Part shown: positions 19,366-38,901 of the stretch, piece after piece | Layout: each line of letters starts with the position of its first letter | Position numbering within the stretch: position 1 is the stretch's first letter | NCBI RefSeq assembly: GCF_023660105.1 | Contig: NZ_JAMHGA010000028.1 | Coordinates: forward strand, 62,001 to 126,000 | Reading direction: 5' to 3' | Source: Desulfovibrio aminophilus | Lineage (GTDB): Bacteria > Desulfobacterota > Desulfovibrionia > Desulfovibrionales > Desulfovibrionaceae | DNA: 64,000 nucleotides | Program-made: the position numbers and the translations under genes | The notes under the pieces: model-generated | Databases searched by the model: none | Told to the model about the DNA's origin: nothing | Seen by the model: only the letters and a program-made list of their open reading frames with translations

Positions 19366-19398
19366 CGCCTCCCCGGACGTGCACCCGCGCGGATCGCC

Positions 19399-19447
19399 CT
19401 GCACATATGTGCAGATATTGGTGCAATAGTTGTGCAACCCATTGCAC
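19399..19447 (+). promoter_or_regulatory. Cluster of GTGCA/TGCAC palindromes, putative enhancer-binding site
   Basis: CTGCACATATGTGCAG (19399-19414) is a perfect 16-base palindrome. A direct GTGCAA follows (19421-19426), then an inverted pair GTGCAA-N4-TTGCAC (19432-19447). The cluster lies 80-130 bases upstream of a sigma-54 promoter, the usual place for an enhancer-binding activator. The same half-site occurs upstream of the sigma-54 promoter at 35.9 kb. Confidence 0.6.
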
Positions 19448-19513
19448 GAACCGTCCACCCTCCTCCGCCGCAATAATTTGTGAAATCCAATGATTCAAGC
19501 AAGAAGCATACTT

Positions 19514-19529
19514 TGGCACGGGGTTCGCA
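19514..19529 (+). promoter_or_regulatory. Sigma-54 promoter
   Basis: TTGGCACGGGGTTCGCA matches the -24/-12 consensus. The GG at 19515-19516 and GC at 19527-19528 are separated by exactly 10 bases, and TGGCACG is the consensus -24 element. Transcription should begin near 19540. Confidence 0.7.
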
Positions 19530-19539
19530 TTTCTTCGAA

Positions 19540-19635
19540 TCGTACAGCACAGCGAGCCTCACCCAGTCACACGTTTCCTTCCCAAACTCCTCTCTCTCCG
19601 TAAGAAGGGGGCCCCAAAAGGGCCCCCTTCTTATT
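19540..19635 (+). ncRNA. Putative sigma-54-dependent small RNA
   Basis: Between the sigma-54 promoter and a very strong terminator lie about 95 bases with no open frame of note. The 5' half is followed by a long unpaired-looking C/U-rich stretch (19577-19600) containing CTCCTCTCTCTCC, complementary to purine-rich Shine-Dalgarno sequences. The 3' end is a 14-bp GC-rich hairpin. This is the layout of a trans-acting regulatory RNA. It lies between two convergent genes, so it is not a leader. The prediction is from sequence only; the alternative is that the hairpin simply ends the upstream panB operon. Confidence 0.5.
19601..19633. terminator. Strong 14-bp hairpin terminator
   Basis: A perfect 14-bp stem (19601-19614 with 19620-19633) has the loop CAAAA. 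The stem ends in TTCTTA followed by TTTG on the plus strand. It can end the small RNA and possibly the efflux operon coming from the other side. Confidence 0.8.
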
Positions 19636-19662
19636 TGTGCAACCAACCCGCGCAGGACCGGG

Positions 19663-21165
19663 TCAGGGGCCGGGAGCGGCCGCCGCTTCCGCCCGGGGGG
19701 CGGGGCGGGGGCCGACGGCCGCGCCGTCCTCGGCCTGGGCCGCGGACTCGGCGGCCCAGCCGCCCCCCAGGGCCTTGTAGAGCGCCACCAGGGCGGTGAG
19801 CTGGTCGGCCCGGCACTGGTCCAGGCTGTCCTGGACGGCGTAGAGCGTGTCCTGGGCCGAGAGCACGTCCAGGAAATTCACCAGGCCCTTGGCGTAGCGT
19901 TCGCGGGCCAGGGACACGCTCTCTTCGGCCGCGCGCTCGGCCTCGGTCAGGGAGACCCGGCGGGCGCTCTGGGCGGAGGAAGAGGCCAGGGCGTTCTCCA
20001 CATCCTCCAGAGCGGTCAGGAAGGCCGCCCGGTAGGCGGCCAGGGCCTCGTCGTAGGCGGCGCGCTTCTGTTCGACGGCGGCCAGGGTCGAGCCGCCGGA
20101 GAAGATCGGCAGCGTGACGCCCGGCACGATGGACCAGTAGCGACTGGCGCTGCTCACGAGGGTCTTGCTCCCCGCGCTCTGCAGGCCCAGGCCCAGGGTC
20201 AGGTCGAAGCTCGGATAGAGGTCGGCCGTGGCCACGCCGATCTCGGCCGAGGCCGCCGCCAGCCTGCGCTCGGAGGCGCGCAGGTCCGGCCGCCGGGCGA
20301 GCAGTTGCGCGGGCAGGCCGGTAGCGAGCAGGGCCTCGCCCGGTTCGGGCAGGGGCCGGACCGGGGCCAGCTCGGCCGTGAGCGTTCCCGGGGCCTGACC
20401 CAGGAGGATGGCCAGGCGGTGCATGGCCTGCTTGACCGCGGACTCCAGGCTGGGGATGTCGGCCTCGGTGGCGGCCCGCTGGGACTCGGCCCGGGCCACG
20501 TCCAGCCAGCTCACCAGCCCGGCCCGCCAGCGCGCCCGGGTGACGTCCACGGTCTGGCGCTGGGCCTCCAGGTTGGCCCTGGCGATGGCCAGGCGGCTCT
20601 GGGACGAGCGCAGGCCGATGTAGGAGTCGGCCACGTCGCCCAGGAGCGTGAGCAGGGCGTTGTGCAGATCCTCCCGTCCGGCCTCCAGGGAGGCCTGGGC
20701 CGACTCCACGTTCCGCCGCGCGCGGCCGAAGAGGTCCAGCTCCCAGGAGGCGTCGAACCCGGCCTGGGAGAGCGTGCTCGTCTTGCCGCTGGAATAGGAC
20801 GCGCCCTCCACGGCGTTCCTGCTCTCCTTGCTGCGGGTGATCGCGCCCGAGCCCTCCAGCGTGGGCCACAGGCCGCCGCGGGCGCCCCGCAGGGCCGCCC
20901 GGGCCTGGACCACGCGCGCCCGGGCCTGCTCCAGGTCCAGGTTGGCGCGCGCGGCCCGCTCCATGAGGCTGTCCAGGACCGGGTCGCCGAAGCCCCTCCA
21001 CCAGGCGGCCATTTCCAGGTTCGGGGCCTCGGCCGTGGCCGTGGCCGCCTCGCTGAACGTCCCGGGGGCCTCGATCACGGGCCGGGCGTAATCCGGGCCC
21101 ACGGCCGCGCAGCCCGCGCAGGCCAGGGCCAGGAGCAGGCCCGCCAGACAGCGCCGGGGACTCAC
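19663..21165 (-). CDS. TolC-family outer-membrane efflux lipoprotein (NodT type)
   Basis: A 500-residue outer-membrane channel. The N-terminal signal ends in a lipobox (LACAGC), and the mature part opens with VGPDYARP, typical of NodT/OprM-like factors. Two long helical repeats (roughly residues 60-250 and 270-460) with alternating heptads form the tunnel barrel. It is the last gene of a four-gene operon (permease, ATPase, adaptor, channel) and starts with GTG inside the adaptor's stop codon. It probably serves this ABC exporter and could also serve the RND pump at 1.6-6.3 kb. Confidence 0.92.
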   Translation of the reverse strand: MSPRRCLAGLLLALACAGCAAVGPDYARPVIEAPGTFSEAATATAEAPNLEMAAWWRGFGDPVLDSLMERAARANLDLEQARARVVQARAALRGARGGLWPTLEGSGAITRSKESRNAVEGASYSSGKTSTLSQAGFDASWELDLFGRARRNVESAQASLEAGREDLHNALLTLLGDVADSYIGLRSSQSRLAIARANLEAQRQTVDVTRARWRAGLVSWLDVARAESQRAATEADIPSLESAVKQAMHRLAILLGQAPGTLTAELAPVRPLPEPGEALLATGLPAQLLARRPDLRASERRLAAASAEIGVATADLYPSFDLTLGLGLQSAGSKTLVSSASRYWSIVPGVTLPIFSGGSTLAAVEQKRAAYDEALAAYRAAFLTALEDVENALASSSAQSARRVSLTEAERAAEESVSLARERYAKGLVNFLDVLSAQDTLYAVQDSLDQCRADQLTALVALYKALGGGWAAESAAQAEDGAAVGPRPAPRAEAAAAPGP

Positions 21166-22226
21166 CCGCCCGCTCCCGCCGGAGTCCCGGCCCCGGCCGC
21201 GCCTCCCGCCGGGAGTTCCGTTCCTCCGGCCGAGGCCGGAACGGATTCGACGGCCGTGGCGTTGGCCTCGGCCTGCATGGAGGAGACGATGGGCCGGGCC
21301 TCGATGAAGGCGTCCACCTGCTGCCCCACGTAGGCCGCTGGCAGGTCCGCGCGGCGGAAGGCGTAGACCACCTGGAGCACGCGGGTGTCCACCTGCTCGG
21401 TGCTGCTGCCGGAGAGCTGGGTCTTGGGCCGCACGTAGGGTTCGGTACGCACGTAGTCCAGGAAGACCTTGAAGTCGCGGTTGCCGCGCAGGAAGGCCAC
21501 GGCCCGGGCCCCGGGCTCGAAGCGCCAGGCGTCGTTCTCGTCGATGTCCACGCGCACGTGCAGGGTGTCCATGTCGCCCAGGCGCAGGAGCGGGGTGTCC
21601 AGGACCCCGGCGGCGGCGTATTCGCCGGGCCGCACGTTGACCTGCAGGATCTCGCCGTCGATGGGCGCGCGCACGCCGAGCAGGTCCAGGGCCGTGCGCG
21701 CGGCGGCCAGGTCGGCCTCGGCCACGGCCACGTCGGCCTGGGCGCTCTTCACCTTGGCCCGGTAGAGGTACATGGCGTTGCGCCGCTTCTCCAGGTCGTC
21801 CAGGCTCACAGCCCTGGGGTCGGTGACGGTGCTCACGAGCCGGTACTGGGTCTCGTAGTCCCGGCAGCTCGCCTCGGCCTCCTCCAGGGAGGCCCGGGCC
21901 TTGGCCAGGGCGGCCTGCTTCTGGGCCAACTCGGCCCGCCGGTCGCGGTCGTCGATCTCGAACAGGAGGTCCCCGGCGGCCACCCGCCGGCCCACCTTCA
22001 CGGCCACGGCGCGGACCACGCCGCCCACGGGCGTGCCCACGGCGATGTTGTCCGAACTGGCCTCCACGATGCCCGAGCCGCCGACATAGGCGGCGAACGG
22101 CGCGCGCGAGGGCTGGGCCACGGGCTGGGCCGGAGGCGTGACGCGCTGGGAGCGCAGGGCCACGGACACGGCCAGGGCCAGCCCGCCGAGGGCCAGGAGG
22201 GGCAGGATCTTGTTGCGCAGGGTCAT
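21162..22226 (-). CDS. HlyD/MacA/DevB-like membrane fusion protein
   Basis: A 354-residue periplasmic adaptor with one N-terminal membrane anchor (residues 8-24). The lipoyl half-motif VGRRVAAGDLLFEIDDRD, a coiled coil (residues 90-165), and the second lipoyl half near GEILQVNVRPGEY follow. It joins the FtsX-type ABC transporter upstream to the TolC-like protein downstream. Its start overlaps the ATPase stop codon by four bases. A Gly/Ala/Pro-rich tail ends the protein. Confidence 0.9.
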   Translation of the reverse strand: MTLRNKILPLLALGGLALAVSVALRSQRVTPPAQPVAQPSRAPFAAYVGGSGIVEASSDNIAVGTPVGGVVRAVAVKVGRRVAAGDLLFEIDDRDRRAELAQKQAALAKARASLEEAEASCRDYETQYRLVSTVTDPRAVSLDDLEKRRNAMYLYRAKVKSAQADVAVAEADLAAARTALDLLGVRAPIDGEILQVNVRPGEYAAAGVLDTPLLRLGDMDTLHVRVDIDENDAWRFEPGARAVAFLRGNRDFKVFLDYVRTEPYVRPKTQLSGSSTEQVDTRVLQVVYAFRRADLPAAYVGQQVDAFIEARPIVSSMQAEANATAVESVPASAGGTELPAGGAAGAGTPAGAGG

Positions 22227-22939
22227 GCGGTGTTCCTCGCGGCGGCCGTCTCGATGCGCTCGATGCGGCCGTCGTCCATGTGCGCGATGCGGTCGGCGCA
22301 GCCGAAAATGCGCGCGTCGTGGGTCACGATGATGAGCGTCCGGCCGTTGCCCGTGGCCAGGGAGCGCAGGGTCTCCATGACCTGCATGCCGGTCCGGTGG
22401 TCCAGGGCGCTGGTGGGCTCGTCGCAGACCGCCAGGCGGGGATCGTGGACCAGGGCCCGGGCCACGGCCACGCGCTGCTGCTGGCCGCCGGAGAGCTGGG
22501 CGGGCAGGGAGCGGACCCGGTCCCCCAGGCCCACCTGGCCCAGGGCCTCGGCGGCCCGGGCCTCGGCCTCCCCGCGGCGCTTCCCGAGGATGAGCAGCGG
22601 GATGGAGACGTTCTCCAGGGCGCTCAGGCTGGGAATGAGGTTGAAGGCCTGGAACACGAAGCCGATGTTCCGGCCCCGGAAGGCCACCCGCTCGCGGCCG
22701 GACAATTCGCGCGGGTCCTGGCCGAAGAGTTCGCAGAGCCCCTCGTCGCGGTCGAGAATCCCGGCCACCACGGAGATGAGCGTGGTCTTGCCGCAGCCCG
22801 AGGGGCCCACGAGCATGAGCAGTTCGCCGGGGGCCGCCTCGAGGTCCACCCCGCGCAAGGCGAACACCCGGTTCTCCTTCGATCCGTAGGACTTGGTCAG
22901 GCCCGCGCAGCGCACGGCCCAGGGCGTGGAGCTGGTCAC
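22223..22939 (-). CDS. ABC exporter ATPase (MacB/LolD/DevA type)
   Basis: A 238-residue nucleotide-binding protein. Walker A GPSGCGKTT, the Q-loop region, the signature LSGGQQQRVAVARAL, Walker B LAVCDEPTSALD and the switch histidine in VTHDARIF are all intact. It powers the adjacent FtsX-type permease, whose gene ends two bases before this one starts. Confidence 0.93.
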   Translation of the reverse strand: MTSSTPWAVRCAGLTKSYGSKENRVFALRGVDLEAAPGELLMLVGPSGCGKTTLISVVAGILDRDEGLCELFGQDPRELSGRERVAFRGRNIGFVFQAFNLIPSLSALENVSIPLLILGKRRGEAEARAAEALGQVGLGDRVRSLPAQLSGGQQQRVAVARALVHDPRLAVCDEPTSALDHRTGMQVMETLRSLATGNGRTLIIVTHDARIFGCADRIAHMDDGRIERIETAAARNTA

Positions 22940-22941
22940 GG

Positions 22942-24105
22942 TCAGCCCTTGAAGACCACGGCGGGTTCGAGGCGGAGCACCTTGCGGATGCTCACCAGGG
23001 CGGCGGCCAGGACGATGAGCAGCACCGCCCCGCCGCTGCCCAGCAGGAGCTGCCAGGAGAGGTCCATGGACGGGCCGTTGCCGCCCTTCATCCCGGCCGC
23101 GAAGGCCGCCGTCAGGCCGGAGCCCAGGCCGAAGCCGATGAGCCCCACGCTGAGGGCCTGGAGCAGGATCATGAGCACGAGCATGCGGCTGCCCGCGCCC
23201 ATGGCCTTGAACACGCCGAAGTGGCGCAGGTTGTCCAGGGTGAAGTTGTAGAAGATCTGGCCCGTGACCGCCGCGCCGATGACGAAGCCGACCAGGACCA
23301 CGAAGCCGAAATTGATGAGCACGTTGGTGTTCTTGATCATGTACGAGAGGGACTTCTCCTTGAACTCCGAGGCGGTGCAGGCCAGCAGCCCGGTCTGGGC
23401 CTCGATCCGCCGGGCAACCAGGGCCGGGTCCTCCCCGGGCTTGGCCTGGGCCAGGACGAAGGCCAGGTTCTTGCGCTCGGTGAGCGCGAAGGACTTGGCC
23501 CGGTTGTAGGTGGTGTAGATGGTCGGGTGGCCCATGAACGCGGGCGTGGCCTTGGCGATGCCCACCACCACGGCCCGGTGGTCGTTGATCTCCAGGATGT
23601 CGCCGACCCGGACCGGCAAGGGCCGTCCGCCGGGGGTGGACGGCGGACGCGCCAGGCGGCCCGTGGCCCCGGCCTCGTCCACGATGATGGCCTCGGGCCG
23701 GCGCAGGTCCTCCAGGCGGCCCTGGACCATGACCGCCGGGCCGCCGATGAGCGTGGCGTCGTCCAGTCCGAGGAGGGTGCAGGCCACGCTCTCGCCGGTG
23801 TCCAGGCGGACCTTCTGGGAGCCCTTGTAGAGCGGCACGGCCCAGTCCACCCCGGCCACGCCGCGCACGCGGTAGAGCTGGGTGTCCTGCATGTTGCGGG
23901 CGTCGTCCACGTGCTTCACCTGCGGGTCCATGACCCAGATTCCGGGCAGGGACACGTCGGTGATGAAGCTGTAGGTGTGGGCCAGCATGGACAGGAGCAT
24001 GCCCGGCTGCTGGATCATGATGACCGAGGCCAGGGCGATGCCGGTGATGATTCCCGCGTACTTGCCGCAGTCCCCCAAAAGCATTTTCCAGGCAATGCGA
24101 AACAT
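22942..24105 (-). CDS. FtsX-like ABC permease (DevC/MacB type)
   Basis: A 387-residue inner-membrane protein with one helix near residues 15-35, a large periplasmic MacB-like domain (about 40-250), and three helices near 262-290, 310-335 and 350-378. This is the FtsX/DevC topology without a fused ATPase. It is first in the operon permease-ATPase-adaptor-channel, which together would form a MacAB-TolC-like tripartite exporter of a lipid, glycolipid, peptide or drug. The 116 bases upstream show no clear promoter. Confidence 0.88.
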   Translation of the reverse strand: MFRIAWKMLLGDCGKYAGIITGIALASVIMIQQPGMLLSMLAHTYSFITDVSLPGIWVMDPQVKHVDDARNMQDTQLYRVRGVAGVDWAVPLYKGSQKVRLDTGESVACTLLGLDDATLIGGPAVMVQGRLEDLRRPEAIIVDEAGATGRLARPPSTPGGRPLPVRVGDILEINDHRAVVVGIAKATPAFMGHPTIYTTYNRAKSFALTERKNLAFVLAQAKPGEDPALVARRIEAQTGLLACTASEFKEKSLSYMIKNTNVLINFGFVVLVGFVIGAAVTGQIFYNFTLDNLRHFGVFKAMGAGSRMLVLMILLQALSVGLIGFGLGSGLTAAFAAGMKGGNGPSMDLSWQLLLGSGGAVLLIVLAAALVSIRKVLRLEPAVVFKG

Positions 24106-24990: not shown

Positions 24991-25019
24991 TTGACAAAAA
25001 CACCCTGCCCTTCCATACT
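24991..25019 (+). promoter_or_regulatory. Sigma-70 promoter of the riboswitch-nrdDG transcript
   Basis: TTGACA (24991-24996) and CATACT (25014-25019) are 17 bases apart, in an AT-rich stretch. Transcription would start near 25026, immediately before the riboswitch. Confidence 0.65.
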
Positions 25020-25027
25020 GCGGCCGA

Positions 25028-25208
25028 ATCGGTGCCCGGACGACCTCCGGGTGAAAAGGGAACCCGGCGGAAATCCGGGACTGCCCCGCAGCGGTGAACG
25101 GGAACAAGCCCCCGCTCGAAGGACACTGGCCCCGGCCGGGAAGTCCGGGGAGGAGGAATGCGGCGAAAGGCCGAAGCGCCCGTGAGTCCGAAGACCTGCC
25201 GGTTCCCG
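25028..25208 (+). promoter_or_regulatory. Cobalamin (AdoCbl) riboswitch
   Basis: The conserved order of the B12 element is present: GGTGCC near 25031, GGGAA near 25059, AAATCCGGGACTGCCCCGCA (25070 to about 25090), the CACTGG segment near 25125, and GAAGACCTGCCGG at the 3' end. About 170 bases then separate it from the nrdD start. It should switch off the anaerobic reductase when adenosylcobalamin is plentiful, presumably because a B12-dependent class II reductase encoded elsewhere then suffices. An in-frame extension of nrdD through this element is not coding. Confidence 0.92.
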
Positions 25209-25378
25209 TCCGCGCCCGGCGCGGACGGCGCGGCGCGACGGCCCGAGGGCGGCCGGCGGCGGACGGATCGCCTTCGGCGTCCCCCTTCCGTTGCCCCTTC
25301 GACCTCCCGGCCGGGACCGGCCCGCCGCCCGATACGCAAGGCATCCCCATCGCACGCAACAACCTGGAGCTGTACGCC

Positions 25379-35326: not shown

Positions 35327-35740
35327 ATGCGTGTTTCCCCCCACTTCTTCTGGAGCTCCATCCTCGTCCTTTCCCTGGTCACGGGCCTGTCGGCCCTGGG
35401 CCTCGCCTGGGACGGCAAGCCGGGCCCAGGCCCCGGCGACGGCCCGGCCCGACTCGATCCGGGCAAACAGGCCCTGCTCGACAAGCTCCTGGAGGAACAC
35501 CGCAAGACCGTGCAACCCCTGCTCGACCAGCTCTTCGTCAAGGAGCACGAACTCAGGGCCCTGGAGCGCCGGTCCAAGGCCGACCTCCCGGCCGTGCGCG
35601 CCGCGGCCGAGGAGATCGTGAGCCTGCGCGGGCAGGTTTTCGAGCAGGATGAGGCCTTCCGGGCCAAGGTCCTGAAAGAGACCGGGCTGCGCCTGCCCCC
35701 GCCCCCGCCGTGCGGACGGCTTGCTCCCGAGCCCATCTGA
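35327..35740 (+). CDS. ZraP/Spy-like periplasmic protein, first paralogue
   Basis: A 137-residue exported protein with an N-terminal signal (residues 8-28) and a helical core (LLEEHRKTVQPLLDQLFVKEHELRALE, quoted in parts: LLEEHRKTVQPL then LFVKEHELRALE) that closely parallels the second paralogue at 35990. ZraP/Spy/CnrX-type proteins are zinc-binding or chaperone-like periplasmic sensors. The C-terminus ends in a proline run and one cysteine rather than the Gly/His/Tyr tail of its neighbour. The GGAGG ribosome site supports the start. It is divergent from the dsr operon. Confidence 0.75.
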   Translation: MRVSPHFFWSSILVLSLVTGLSALGLAWDGKPGPGPGDGPARLDPGKQALLDKLLEEHRKTVQPLLDQLFVKEHELRALERRSKADLPAVRAAAEEIVSLRGQVFEQDEAFRAKVLKETGLRLPPPPPCGRLAPEPI

Positions 35741-35850
35741 TCCCCCGGCGGGAGGGTCCGGCCCTCCCGCCCCCTTCTCCCGCCTCCGCCGCGCCCCCGT
35801 CGCCCGTCCCCGCCCACGCCCGCGCAATGTGCAGGATGTTGCATGGATTC

Positions 35851-35870
35851 ATGTGCTGTTTATTGCACAT
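35851..35870 (+). promoter_or_regulatory. Putative enhancer-binding site
   Basis: ATGTGC-N8-GCACAT is a perfect inverted repeat about 75 bases upstream of the sigma-54 -12 element. Another partial site (AATGTGCA then TTGCATG) lies at 35825-35844. The half-sites match those at 19399-19447. Confidence 0.55.
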
Positions 35871-35921
35871 CGCGATCCGCGGATGCCGCATTTATACATT
35901 GATATTATTCCCTTTTCATCG

Positions 35922-35939
35922 TTGGCACGGCCTATGCTT
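35922..35939 (+). promoter_or_regulatory. Sigma-54 promoter of the ZraP-like gene cluster
   Basis: TTGGCACGGCCTATGCTT fits the -24/-12 consensus: GG at 35924-35925 and GC at 35936-35937 are 10 bases apart. The start would be near 35949, 40 bases before the gene. In enterobacteria zraP is also driven by sigma-54 and the activator ZraR. Confidence 0.75.
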
Positions 35940-35989
35940 CATCCCGAACAAAACAAAGGCCGCGCCCCGCGGCCAAGGAGGATTTCACG

Positions 35990-36487
35990 ATGACCAAGAC
36001 CGCCACCCGTTCCGCCTGGTACCTGGGACTGGCCCTGAGCATGGTGCTCGGACTCGCCGCCGCTTCCTACGCCTTCGGAGGCTACGGTCACGGCATGGGC
36101 CCCGGCTACGGCATGATGAACGACTACGCCCAGCTCACCCCGGAGAAGCGCGCCGCCGTGGACAAGCTTTTCGCCGAGCACCGCAAGGCCGTGCAGCCCC
36201 TGCGCGACGAGCTGTTCATCAAGCAGGCCGAGCTGGACGCCGTGGAGCGCCAGCAGAACCCGGACCTGAACGCCGTGCGCACCCTGGCCAAGGACATCAC
36301 CGTGCTGCGCGGCAAGCTGGCCGACCAGCGTGACGCCTTCCGGGCCAAGGTCGAAAAGGAGACCGGCATCGAGATGGGTCCCGGCCGCGGCTACGGCATG
36401 GGTTACGGCCACGGCTACGGCCACGACGGCTACGGCATGGGCTACGGCCGCGGCATGGGTTCCGGCGGCGGCTGCGGCCGCTGGTAG
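35990..36487 (+). CDS. zraP: ZraP/Spy-like zinc-resistance-associated periplasmic protein
   Basis: A 165-residue exported protein. The signal peptide (residues 8-28) is followed by GGYGHGMGPGYGMM, a helical core with KLFAEHRKAVQPLRDELF, and a tail of about 35 residues rich in Gly, Tyr and His (GYGMGYGHGYGHDGYG) ending GGGCGRW. ZraP-type proteins bind zinc and act as periplasmic chaperones, lowering envelope stress. An AAGGAGG ribosome site precedes it. It heads a cluster with a DUF2318 protein and an FtsX-type ABC system and is the first gene after the sigma-54 promoter. Confidence 0.85.
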   Translation: MTKTATRSAWYLGLALSMVLGLAAASYAFGGYGHGMGPGYGMMNDYAQLTPEKRAAVDKLFAEHRKAVQPLRDELFIKQAELDAVERQQNPDLNAVRTLAKDITVLRGKLADQRDAFRAKVEKETGIEMGPGRGYGMGYGHGYGHDGYGMGYGRGMGSGGGCGRW

Positions 36488-36566
36488 GCCCCACGATTCC
36501 CGGGACGGAGGCCGGGCGCGCTCCCGGCCCTCCGTCCCCTTCCCCCCTCGCCCCTGGAGACCTCCG

Positions 36567-37025
36567 ATGACCAAGCGCTTCCTCTTCCGCCTCGCCGTGC
36601 TGATGCTCATCCTCGGCATGGCCGGCGTGGCCCACGCCTTCTTCGGCATGTTCGACCGGGGCCCGCGCATGCTCCAGCCCGACAAGGGCGTGGTGCGCCT
36701 GTCCCTGGACCAGTTCCGCGACGGCCAGGCCCATCGCTACGCCCTGGACGTGGCCGGCAAGACCGTGCCCTTCTTCGTGATCCAGAGCCGCGACGGCGTG
36801 GCCCGGGCCGCCTTCGACGCCTGCGACGTCTGCTGGGCCGAGCGCAAGGGCTACTCCCAGGACGGCGACTTCATGGTCTGCGACAACTGCGGCCAGCGCT
36901 TCCACACCTCGCGCATCAACGAGGTCAAGGGCGGCTGCAACCCCGCTCCCCTGGAGCGGACCGTGGACGGCGGCGACCTGGTCATCCGGGTCGCGGACAT
37001 CGCGGCCGGAGCCCGCTACTTCTAG
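36567..37025 (+). CDS. Exported DUF2318 Fe-S/metal-binding-like protein
   Basis: A 152-residue protein with a signal peptide (residues 5-24). The mature domain carries paired cysteines (CDVCW and CDNCGQRFH) and a further cysteine (GGCNPAPL), the pattern of DUF2318. Fused or adjacent DUF2318 proteins occur with FTR1-type and FtsX-type metal transport systems; the order DUF2318-permease-ATPase here recalls the Campylobacter Cj1660-Cj1663 iron-uptake region. The start at 36567 puts the signal peptide first; the frame stays open upstream within zraP. It lies eight bases before the permease gene. Confidence 0.8.
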   Translation: MTKRFLFRLAVLMLILGMAGVAHAFFGMFDRGPRMLQPDKGVVRLSLDQFRDGQAHRYALDVAGKTVPFFVIQSRDGVARAAFDACDVCWAERKGYSQDGDFMVCDNCGQRFHTSRINEVKGGCNPAPLERTVDGGDLVIRVADIAAGARYF

Positions 37026-37032
37026 GCCGCCC

Positions 37033-38208
37033 ATGAACCTCTGCACCATCCCGCTGCGCAACCTGCGCCGCAAGCCGTTCAAGAACCTGCTCCTGGCCCT
37101 GGTCCTGACCCTGGGCGTGGCCGCCATCACGGCCCTGTCCGGCGTCTCCCGGGTGGTCGGCGAGAGCCTGGAAAAGAAGCTCACGGCCTACGGCGCGAAC
37201 ATCCTCGTGACCCCGCGCTCGGAAAAACTCACCGTGAGCTACGGCGGCCTGGCCCTGGGCGACATGCTCTACGGCCTGGAATACCTGGACGAGGCCGCCG
37301 CCCAAAAGGCCATCGACGGCATCGCCCTGCGCAGGAACGTGAGCGTGGTCGCGCCCAAGCTCGTGGTCCCGGCTGAGTCCGGCGGCACGGCCCTGGCCGT
37401 GGTCGGCGTGCGCTTCGACCGCGAGCGCCTGCTCAAGGGCTACTGGAGCCTGGCCGGAACCTGGCCCGCCTCGGACTCCCAGGTCCTGCTCGGCTCCCGC
37501 GCCGCCGCCCGCCTGGGCGGAGCCGCCGGGCCCCTGGCCCCGGGCCACGCGCTGCGCATCTCCGGCCGCGACCTGACCGTGTCCGGCGTGCTGGCCGAAA
37601 CCGGCGGCGACGACGACAACGCGGCCTTCGCCACCCTGCCCCTGGCCCAGTCCCTGGCCAAGATGCCGGGCAAGGCCAATCTCCTGGAGGTCGCCGCGCT
37701 CTGCGCCGGGTGCCCCATCGAGGACATCGTGGCCCAGCTCGCCGCCGCCCTGCCCCACACCGAGGTCAAGGCCCTGCGCCAGGTGGTGGAGCAGCGCATG
37801 TACTCCGTGCATTTCGTGAAGAACCTGGCCCTGGCGGTGAGCCTGGTGATCCTGCTCACGGCCTGCGCCATGGTGGCCGCCAGCATGCTCTCCTCGGTGA
37901 ACGAGCGCGTGCGCGAGATCGGCCTGCTGCGCTCCCTGGGCTTCTCCCGTGGGGCGGTGTTCTCCCTGTTCAGCTTCGAGGCCCTGGTCCTGGGCCTGGC
38001 CTCGGGCCTGGCGGGCCACCTGCTCGGCTTCTCGGCCACCGGGCCGATCCTGGCCGCGCTGCACGCCGAGGGCGGGACCCCCGTCTTCAGCCTCGCGGCC
38101 CTGGCCCTGACCGCCGGGTCCATCTCCCTGGTGAGCATGCTCTCATCCCTGTTCCCGGCCTGGCAGGCGTCGCGCGTGGACCCCTCCCAGGCCCTGGTTT
38201 CCCTCTAG
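37033..38208 (+). CDS. FtsX-like ABC permease
   Basis: A 391-residue membrane protein with one helix near residues 17-38, a large extracytoplasmic MacB-like domain, and three C-terminal helices (about 268-290, 312-338, 352-376). It forms an ABC system with the ATPase that begins 12 bases downstream. Placed after a DUF2318 protein and ZraP, it probably moves a metal or metal-stress-related substrate, but the direction is uncertain because FtsX-type systems can also be mechanical transducers. Confidence 0.87.
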   Translation: MNLCTIPLRNLRRKPFKNLLLALVLTLGVAAITALSGVSRVVGESLEKKLTAYGANILVTPRSEKLTVSYGGLALGDMLYGLEYLDEAAAQKAIDGIALRRNVSVVAPKLVVPAESGGTALAVVGVRFDRERLLKGYWSLAGTWPASDSQVLLGSRAAARLGGAAGPLAPGHALRISGRDLTVSGVLAETGGDDDNAAFATLPLAQSLAKMPGKANLLEVAALCAGCPIEDIVAQLAAALPHTEVKALRQVVEQRMYSVHFVKNLALAVSLVILLTACAMVAASMLSSVNERVREIGLLRSLGFSRGAVFSLFSFEALVLGLASGLAGHLLGFSATGPILAALHAEGGTPVFSLAALALTAGSISLVSMLSSLFPAWQASRVDPSQALVSL

Positions 38209-38220
38209 GAGGTCCGTTCC

Positions 38221-38901
<681 letters not shown>

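Follow-up and report, generated by a model that had tools for sequence, protein, structure and literature searches.

A conserved small RNA predicted behind a sigma-54 promoter in Desulfovibrio aminophilus and its most likely place in a ZraSR-type stress regulon

Within a 64,000-nucleotide stretch of the Desulfovibrio aminophilus genome (hereafter the window), a small RNA of about 98 nt is predicted on the + strand (19540-19637), behind a sigma-54 promoter and a cluster of activator sites that also precede zraP genes of the same genome. In all likelihood it serves as the RNA arm of a regulon of the ZraSR type that answers envelope or metal stress. A more specific reading, in which the RNA is activated by ZraR, is induced together with ZraP proteins and acts by pairing with Shine-Dalgarno sequences, is in our judgment probable. 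The promoter, its sites, their conservation, the independence of the unit from its neighbors and the sites held in common with the zraP genes can be read from the DNA itself; from these we infer the transcription of the RNA, the role of ZraR as its activator and the anti-Shine-Dalgarno pairing.

An initial annotation of this DNA had described a near-consensus sigma-54 promoter with palindromes upstream of it, and both were recovered. The -24/-12 element TTGGCACGGGGTTCGCA (19513-19529, + strand) is an exact pattern match at 19514-19529, where its sequence, TGGCACGGGGTTCGCA, departs from TGGCACGNNNNTTGCW at one position. The palindromes prove to be TTGCAC/GTGCAA dyads that occupy 19397-19450 on the same strand (TGCACATATGTGCA, GGTGCAA and TTGTGCAACCCATTGCAC) and are probably sites of a ZraR-type response regulator; sequence reading and a repeat search place TGCACATATGTGCA at 19400-19413 and a GTGCAA-N4-TTGCAC dyad at about 19432-19447. 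Such half-sites are nowhere denser in the window than here (6 per 150 bp, compared with a mean of 0.08). A search of the entire window for sigma-54 promoters with at most one mismatch returned only this one, an exact match, where 1.08 were expected. Since the promoter match by itself lies within chance, the case is built on conservation and on shared sites.

The predicted start, at about 19540, is set 12 nt past the -12 element. None of the codons ATG, GTG, TTG and CTG occurs between it and a hairpin at 19601-19633. A single long open reading frame of the + strand crosses the locus (19480-21333); it opens ahead of the predicted start and runs antisense to a NodT-type efflux gene. The hairpin is the perfect 14-bp terminator that was originally described, with arms at 19601-19614 and 19620-19633 that are complementary at 14 of 14 positions (100%), followed by TTTG; a terminator search that demands a strict T-run passed over it. 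It sits between convergent genes and could act for both. Ahead of it on the + strand is the CU-rich stretch CACGTTTCCTTCCCAAACTCCTCTCTCTCC (19570-19599), predicted to be unpaired and a probable anti-Shine-Dalgarno pairing region; the previously reported CTCCTCTCTCTCC is present within it at 19587-19599. Structure prediction leaves nearly all of the RNA 5' of the terminator single-stranded. CTCC is not in excess in the window RNA (2 occurrences vs 1.8 in shuffled sequences), and its counts in the RNAs of some other lineages are moderately high against shuffles. No family in Rfam release 15 matches the locus, nor do the related loci of other genomes match any at the gathering level; the sole Rfam match in the window is a cobalamin riboswitch (25013-25217, + strand, 99.5 bits).

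The initial annotation had proposed to look for conservation of this region in related genomes, and in a comparison of the window with two congener species (G001 and G002) the promoter, including its GG and GC dinucleotides, the activator sites and the RNA body are all kept in both. Over the 56 bases that precede the hairpin (19545-19600), identity to the two congeners is 100% and 96%, compared with 89% and 82% for third codon positions in the gene upstream, 62% and 51% for the spacer between sites and promoter, and 57% and 41% for the DNA 3' of the RNA unit. The 4% difference in the RNA body is a 2-nt CT deletion in G002, the CU-rich stretch being otherwise invariant in the genus, and the pairing of the hairpin is retained in both congeners although the length of its stem varies. 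The G002 RNA carries a 1-nt insertion and this 2-nt deletion, neither a multiple of three, which together with the lack of start codons argues that the window RNA is non-coding; a coding function was rejected on these grounds. The gene 3' of the RNA is different in each of the three genomes, a NodT efflux gene in the window, a hydrogenase maturation protease gene in G001 and a PhoH-like gene in G002, so the unit is independent and not the leader of a neighbor. In the window an efflux cluster (19663-24105: NodT outer membrane factor, membrane fusion protein, ABC ATPase and permease) separates the RNA from the hydrogenase maturation protease gene; since that gene lies directly 3' of the RNA in G001, the cluster was either inserted or, in G001, lost. 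A covariance model of the window RNA has strong matches only in these three congeneric genomes. The conserved body, which lacks start codons, and the conserved hairpin predict a discrete non-coding transcript that would end at an intrinsic terminator.

The regulator is suggested by the company that these sites keep. The initial annotation had called the small RNA an orphan, but elsewhere in this genome matching sites and the same promoter type precede both an operon of the zraP-zraS-zraR type and a second zraP-like gene. This allows the regulator and the likely class of stimulus to be named. A genome-wide search for the site pair found ten matches in eight regions, and three of these regions have an exact TGGCACGN6GC sigma-54 promoter, which stands before the small RNA in the first, before the zraP-like gene at 35990 in the second and before the operon in the third. 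The second of these, also on the + strand, combines a set of activator sites at 35822-35874 (genome-wide site search and half-site scan), a sigma-54 promoter at 35922-35938 and a predicted co-regulated gene for a ZraP-like periplasmic protein of the Metal_resist type at 35990-36487 (PF13801, 64 bits; NCBIfam ZraP, 57.5 bits with a cut-off of 200); the arrangement is the same in G001 (L204). The surrounding cluster (35327-38901) holds two ZraP-like Metal_resist genes, an FtrD-like gene, an FtsX/MacB-type permease gene and an ABC ATPase gene, and of the two ZraP-like genes only the second has ZraR-type sites and a sigma-54 promoter. The operon, on contig C43, has the order zraP-zraS-zraR: a further ZraP-like protein comes first, then a sensor kinase of the membrane, then a response regulator of the sigma-54 type, with Pfam and NCBIfam matches to Metal_resist/ZraP, kinase and sigma-54 response regulator models. 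ZraS is the best NCBIfam match of the kinase (238 bits, below the equivalog cut-off of 479); the regulator scores 410 bits with NCBIfam ZraR, whose cut-off is 760, and higher with AtoC. That ZraR would activate the small RNA is deduced from the apparent autoregulation of this operon.

The same arrangement extends well beyond the genus. Of 13 genomes with a ZraP match, 12 combine a sigma-54 promoter with three or more half-sites at the best match; these 12 come from three genera and the single exception from a fourth. A ZraS homologue lies 3' of zraP in 11 of the 14 loci tested. The pattern of site, spacer and promoter occurs in 74 of 149 family genomes, as opposed to 1 of 149 for a reversed control pattern; spacings of 42-72 bp were productive and those of 1-30 bp gave no match. 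Many of the genes behind it encode proteins that are ZraP-like, that are secreted and rich in glycine, or that are small and membrane-bound. The regulon is therefore recognizable, and the small RNA would be a member by virtue of its sites. Among the individual cases are membrane proteins of about 92 residues, SHOCT-type in appearance, behind ZraR-type sites some 8-12 kb from zraP in Pseudodesulfovibrio (L248, L249, L251), and, in G002, a ZraR-type site and promoter before a small secreted, cytochrome c3-like protein with a haem-like CAGCHH motif (L252/L218). In one Pseudodesulfovibrio genome (G155) an RNA-type locus is present and no ZraP match was found.

Counterparts of the RNA locus itself occur in other Desulfovibrionaceae 3' of the "Gate" gene (nucleoside recognition), the orthologue of the upstream gene. 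There a strong sigma-54 promoter and at least three half-sites were found at seven loci of Pseudodesulfovibrio and also in genus g22, Salidesulfovibrio and one further MAG; over 100 other flanks were examined, and all of them lack this combination. In two genomes of Pseudodesulfovibrio the unit is doubled (L133 in G006, L140 in G055), the copies lying about 450-540 bp apart, and each of these tandem units includes an RNA with CCUCC and a short open frame, as paralogous stress RNAs might (cf. Qrr). An RNA model built from Pseudodesulfovibrio matches 8 of the 149 family genomes, all of that genus, and some matches are not adjacent to the Gate gene, the unit having moved there. The RNA bodies of separate genera give no full-length alignment, and in 6 of 10 Pseudodesulfovibrio transcripts the 3' tail is a weak match to the window model (E 0.0002 to 0.08). 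What the different genera have in common is the motif CUCCU/CCCUCCUC, the complement of AGGAG. ZraR-type sites with a sigma-54 promoter were also seen in genus g46 (L221-L227), G003 (L220) and G149 (L262), ahead of stretches that look CU-rich, structured and non-coding and whose sequences do not clearly resemble that of the window RNA.

The ten Pseudodesulfovibrio-type copies have a more elaborate architecture. Two covarying hairpins (pairing in 98.5% of cells and 13 double changes, a level that no shuffle out of 500 attained) flank nine consecutive invariant columns, TCCCTCCTC; TCCCUCCUC is likewise invariant, and in the 3' part, ahead of the terminator, ACCTCC and CCCTCCTC are conserved. A frame of about 60-68 codons is open in all ten, with indels that are mostly in-frame, and hence the transcript may have a dual function. 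The changes in this frame are 474 non-synonymous vs 192 synonymous, and substitutions in the hairpin region are not enriched at third positions, which indicates that constraint on the RNA is dominant; the CCCUCCUC motifs are invariant even at synonymous positions. The predicted product (L134, L135, L140, L244-L247) is a small protein, about 60-68 residues long and hydrophobic near its N-terminus (MHDAATFTLIILTAALLRRSLL...), whose frame overlaps the covarying hairpins; Pfam gives no significant match for any of these proteins.

How the RNA might act is suggested by its motif and by its cellular context. The 3' end of 16S rRNA is CACCUCCUU. A search for Hfq (PF17209) in the host genome, which is 99.99% complete, gave no match, with E. 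coli and other controls positive. Motifs complementary to the Shine-Dalgarno sequence and the lack of a detectable Hfq make Hfq-independent pairing with ribosome sites the best-supported mechanism, and an anti-Shine-Dalgarno action of the CU-rich stretch in trans is plausible. Of the regulated trans-acting RNA that was originally proposed, conservation and shared activator sites give good support to a sigma-54-activated, independently transcribed non-coding RNA; the suggested comparison with ribosome sites, run in three congeners with AGAGGAGTT-ATG, identified no conserved target, there being no convincing gene start common to two genomes. Only one place recurs in all three, and it was rejected because its ATG seems to lie inside a coding stretch.

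Two alternatives deny that there is a regulatory RNA. The promoter might have arisen by chance before a terminator that marks the 3' end shared with the upstream gene, and a match within chance expectation and a hairpin that could serve two convergent genes would both allow this. We nonetheless reject it as extremely improbable, because the bases before the hairpin are nearly unchanged in the congeners while the spacer and downstream flank fall to 41-62%, and because promoter and sites recur at the equivalent place in other genera and in none of the more than 100 other flanks. That the product is instead a micro-protein, with the RNA merely its message, would agree with the frame kept open in all ten Pseudodesulfovibrio-type copies; it is nevertheless very unlikely given the window genus, with its missing start codons and frame-breaking indels, and given the excess of non-synonymous changes and the absence of third-position bias in Pseudodesulfovibrio itself.

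The remaining alternatives accept the RNA and dispute its action or its activator. Some small RNAs function by titration, CrcZ of Hfq and GlmY of RapZ, and a ZraR-controlled decoy whose CU-rich strand titrates a protein or another RNA, leaving ribosome sites unblocked, would be consistent with a stretch that is invariant and predicted to be open and with the failure of the seed-plus-ATG search to yield a conserved target. We regard it as unlikely, however, since the genome has no detectable Hfq and since the motif that persists across genera complements AGGAG and is so strictly held in Pseudodesulfovibrio. Activation by some other enhancer-binding protein, for example a counterpart of DVU1419, has candidates in the 33 strong PF00158 matches of the genome and precedents in D. 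vulgaris, where DVU1419, DVU0653, DVU0679 and DVU2359 each have a non-coding RNA target (PMC4641369). This too is quite improbable: the sites of the small RNA also precede zraP-zraS-zraR in its own genome and the best zraP match in nearly all genomes compared, and TTGCACA/TGTGCAA is almost absent (one single site) within 1.5 kb on each side of the enhancer-binding-protein domains scanned, 30 of the 33.

A ZraR-activated RNA would probably belong to a kind already known, the sigma-54-driven small RNA under two-component control, of which the ZraR-type member is apparently unreported. Qrr, GlmY/GlmZ, CrcZ and NrsZ are sigma-54 small RNAs switched on by two-component regulators; these are gammaproteobacterial, whereas the window RNA has no Rfam match and its genome no detectable Hfq. 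The enterobacterial ZraPSR system places a sigma-54 response regulator, a sensor kinase and periplasmic ZraP under one autoregulated control, and the regulon proposed here is alike in gene set and single control but would add a non-coding RNA. The CcsR RNAs, whose motif is CCUCCUCCC, resemble the Pseudodesulfovibrio loci in their CCUCC motifs and in pairing a small frame (about 65 codons in the latter) with RNA. They differ from the window RNA in being alphaproteobacterial, in their RpoHI/RpoHII promoter and in the accompanying DUF1127 protein, for which the window genus has no frame and the Pseudodesulfovibrio proteins no significant Pfam match. In Rhodobacter the CcsR RNAs and CcaF1 form the CIN1 locus, in which a transcript from a stress promoter joins a small protein gene to RNA units (PMC10253847).

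Closer to the window, D. vulgaris has four sigma-54 non-coding RNAs, with DVU0653, DVU0679, DVU1419 and DVU2359 as regulators, the target of DVU0679 in strain Hildenborough being Dv_sRNA2 (PMC4641369, PMC3333781). D. vulgaris belongs to the same order as the window species, and by their description its RNAs likewise stand behind a sigma-54 promoter and enhancer-binding-protein sites. The envelope-stress regulator DVU3381, ZraR-like and by regulon content a putative counterpart, was assigned only DVU3382-DVU3381 and DVU3384, and no non-coding RNA, whereas the window regulon would have one; DVU1419 is also classed under envelope stress, and the figure legend for its three-gene operon names HK and Hpt and no ZraP gene (PMC4641369, PMC3333781). 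In the portions of open-licence papers available to us, we found no small RNA linked to ZraR or ZraSR.

The sequence of events that we propose would begin with a ZraS-like kinase that senses envelope or metal stress. A ZraR-type regulator, most likely that of the C43 operon itself, would then bind the TTGCAC/GTGCAA sites, and sigma-54 RNA polymerase would transcribe the non-coding RNA, so that periplasmic ZraP-type proteins and the small RNA were induced together. With its open CU-rich 5' part and its terminator hairpin, the RNA, in a bacterium with no detectable Hfq, would probably pair through CUCCUCUCUCUCC with purine-rich Shine-Dalgarno regions and lower the translation of a set of mRNAs. 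The lowering of translation is proposed by analogy with the small RNAs of other envelope stress responses. In the sigma-E and Cpx systems, for example, small RNAs halt the synthesis of envelope proteins while chaperones are induced.

A broader view, which we offer tentatively, is that the Zra regulon of the Desulfovibrionaceae has a fast-evolving RNA arm in which only the displayed anti-Shine-Dalgarno motif is constant, its form depending on the lineage and its function being that of a broad, Hfq-free translational brake. Its forms might then be, and this is equally speculative, a bare RNA of about 98 nt in the window genus, a longer multi-motif RNA, and the dual-function transcript of Pseudodesulfovibrio; the last could conceivably unite a small membrane protein with structured CCCUCCUC elements, sometimes in tandem copies. 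So far as could be found, ZraSR has had no RNA arm on record. A sulfate reducer's sigma-54 promoter that would otherwise lack an explanation thereby gets an assignment, and, with a named regulator, its sites and a conserved RNA in a genome with no detectable Hfq, the question of an Hfq-free trans-acting RNA becomes directly testable. Since the small RNA and the ZraP genes have the same promoter type and sites, and since the CU-rich stretch is conserved, this stress system probably has an RNA arm that had gone unreported.
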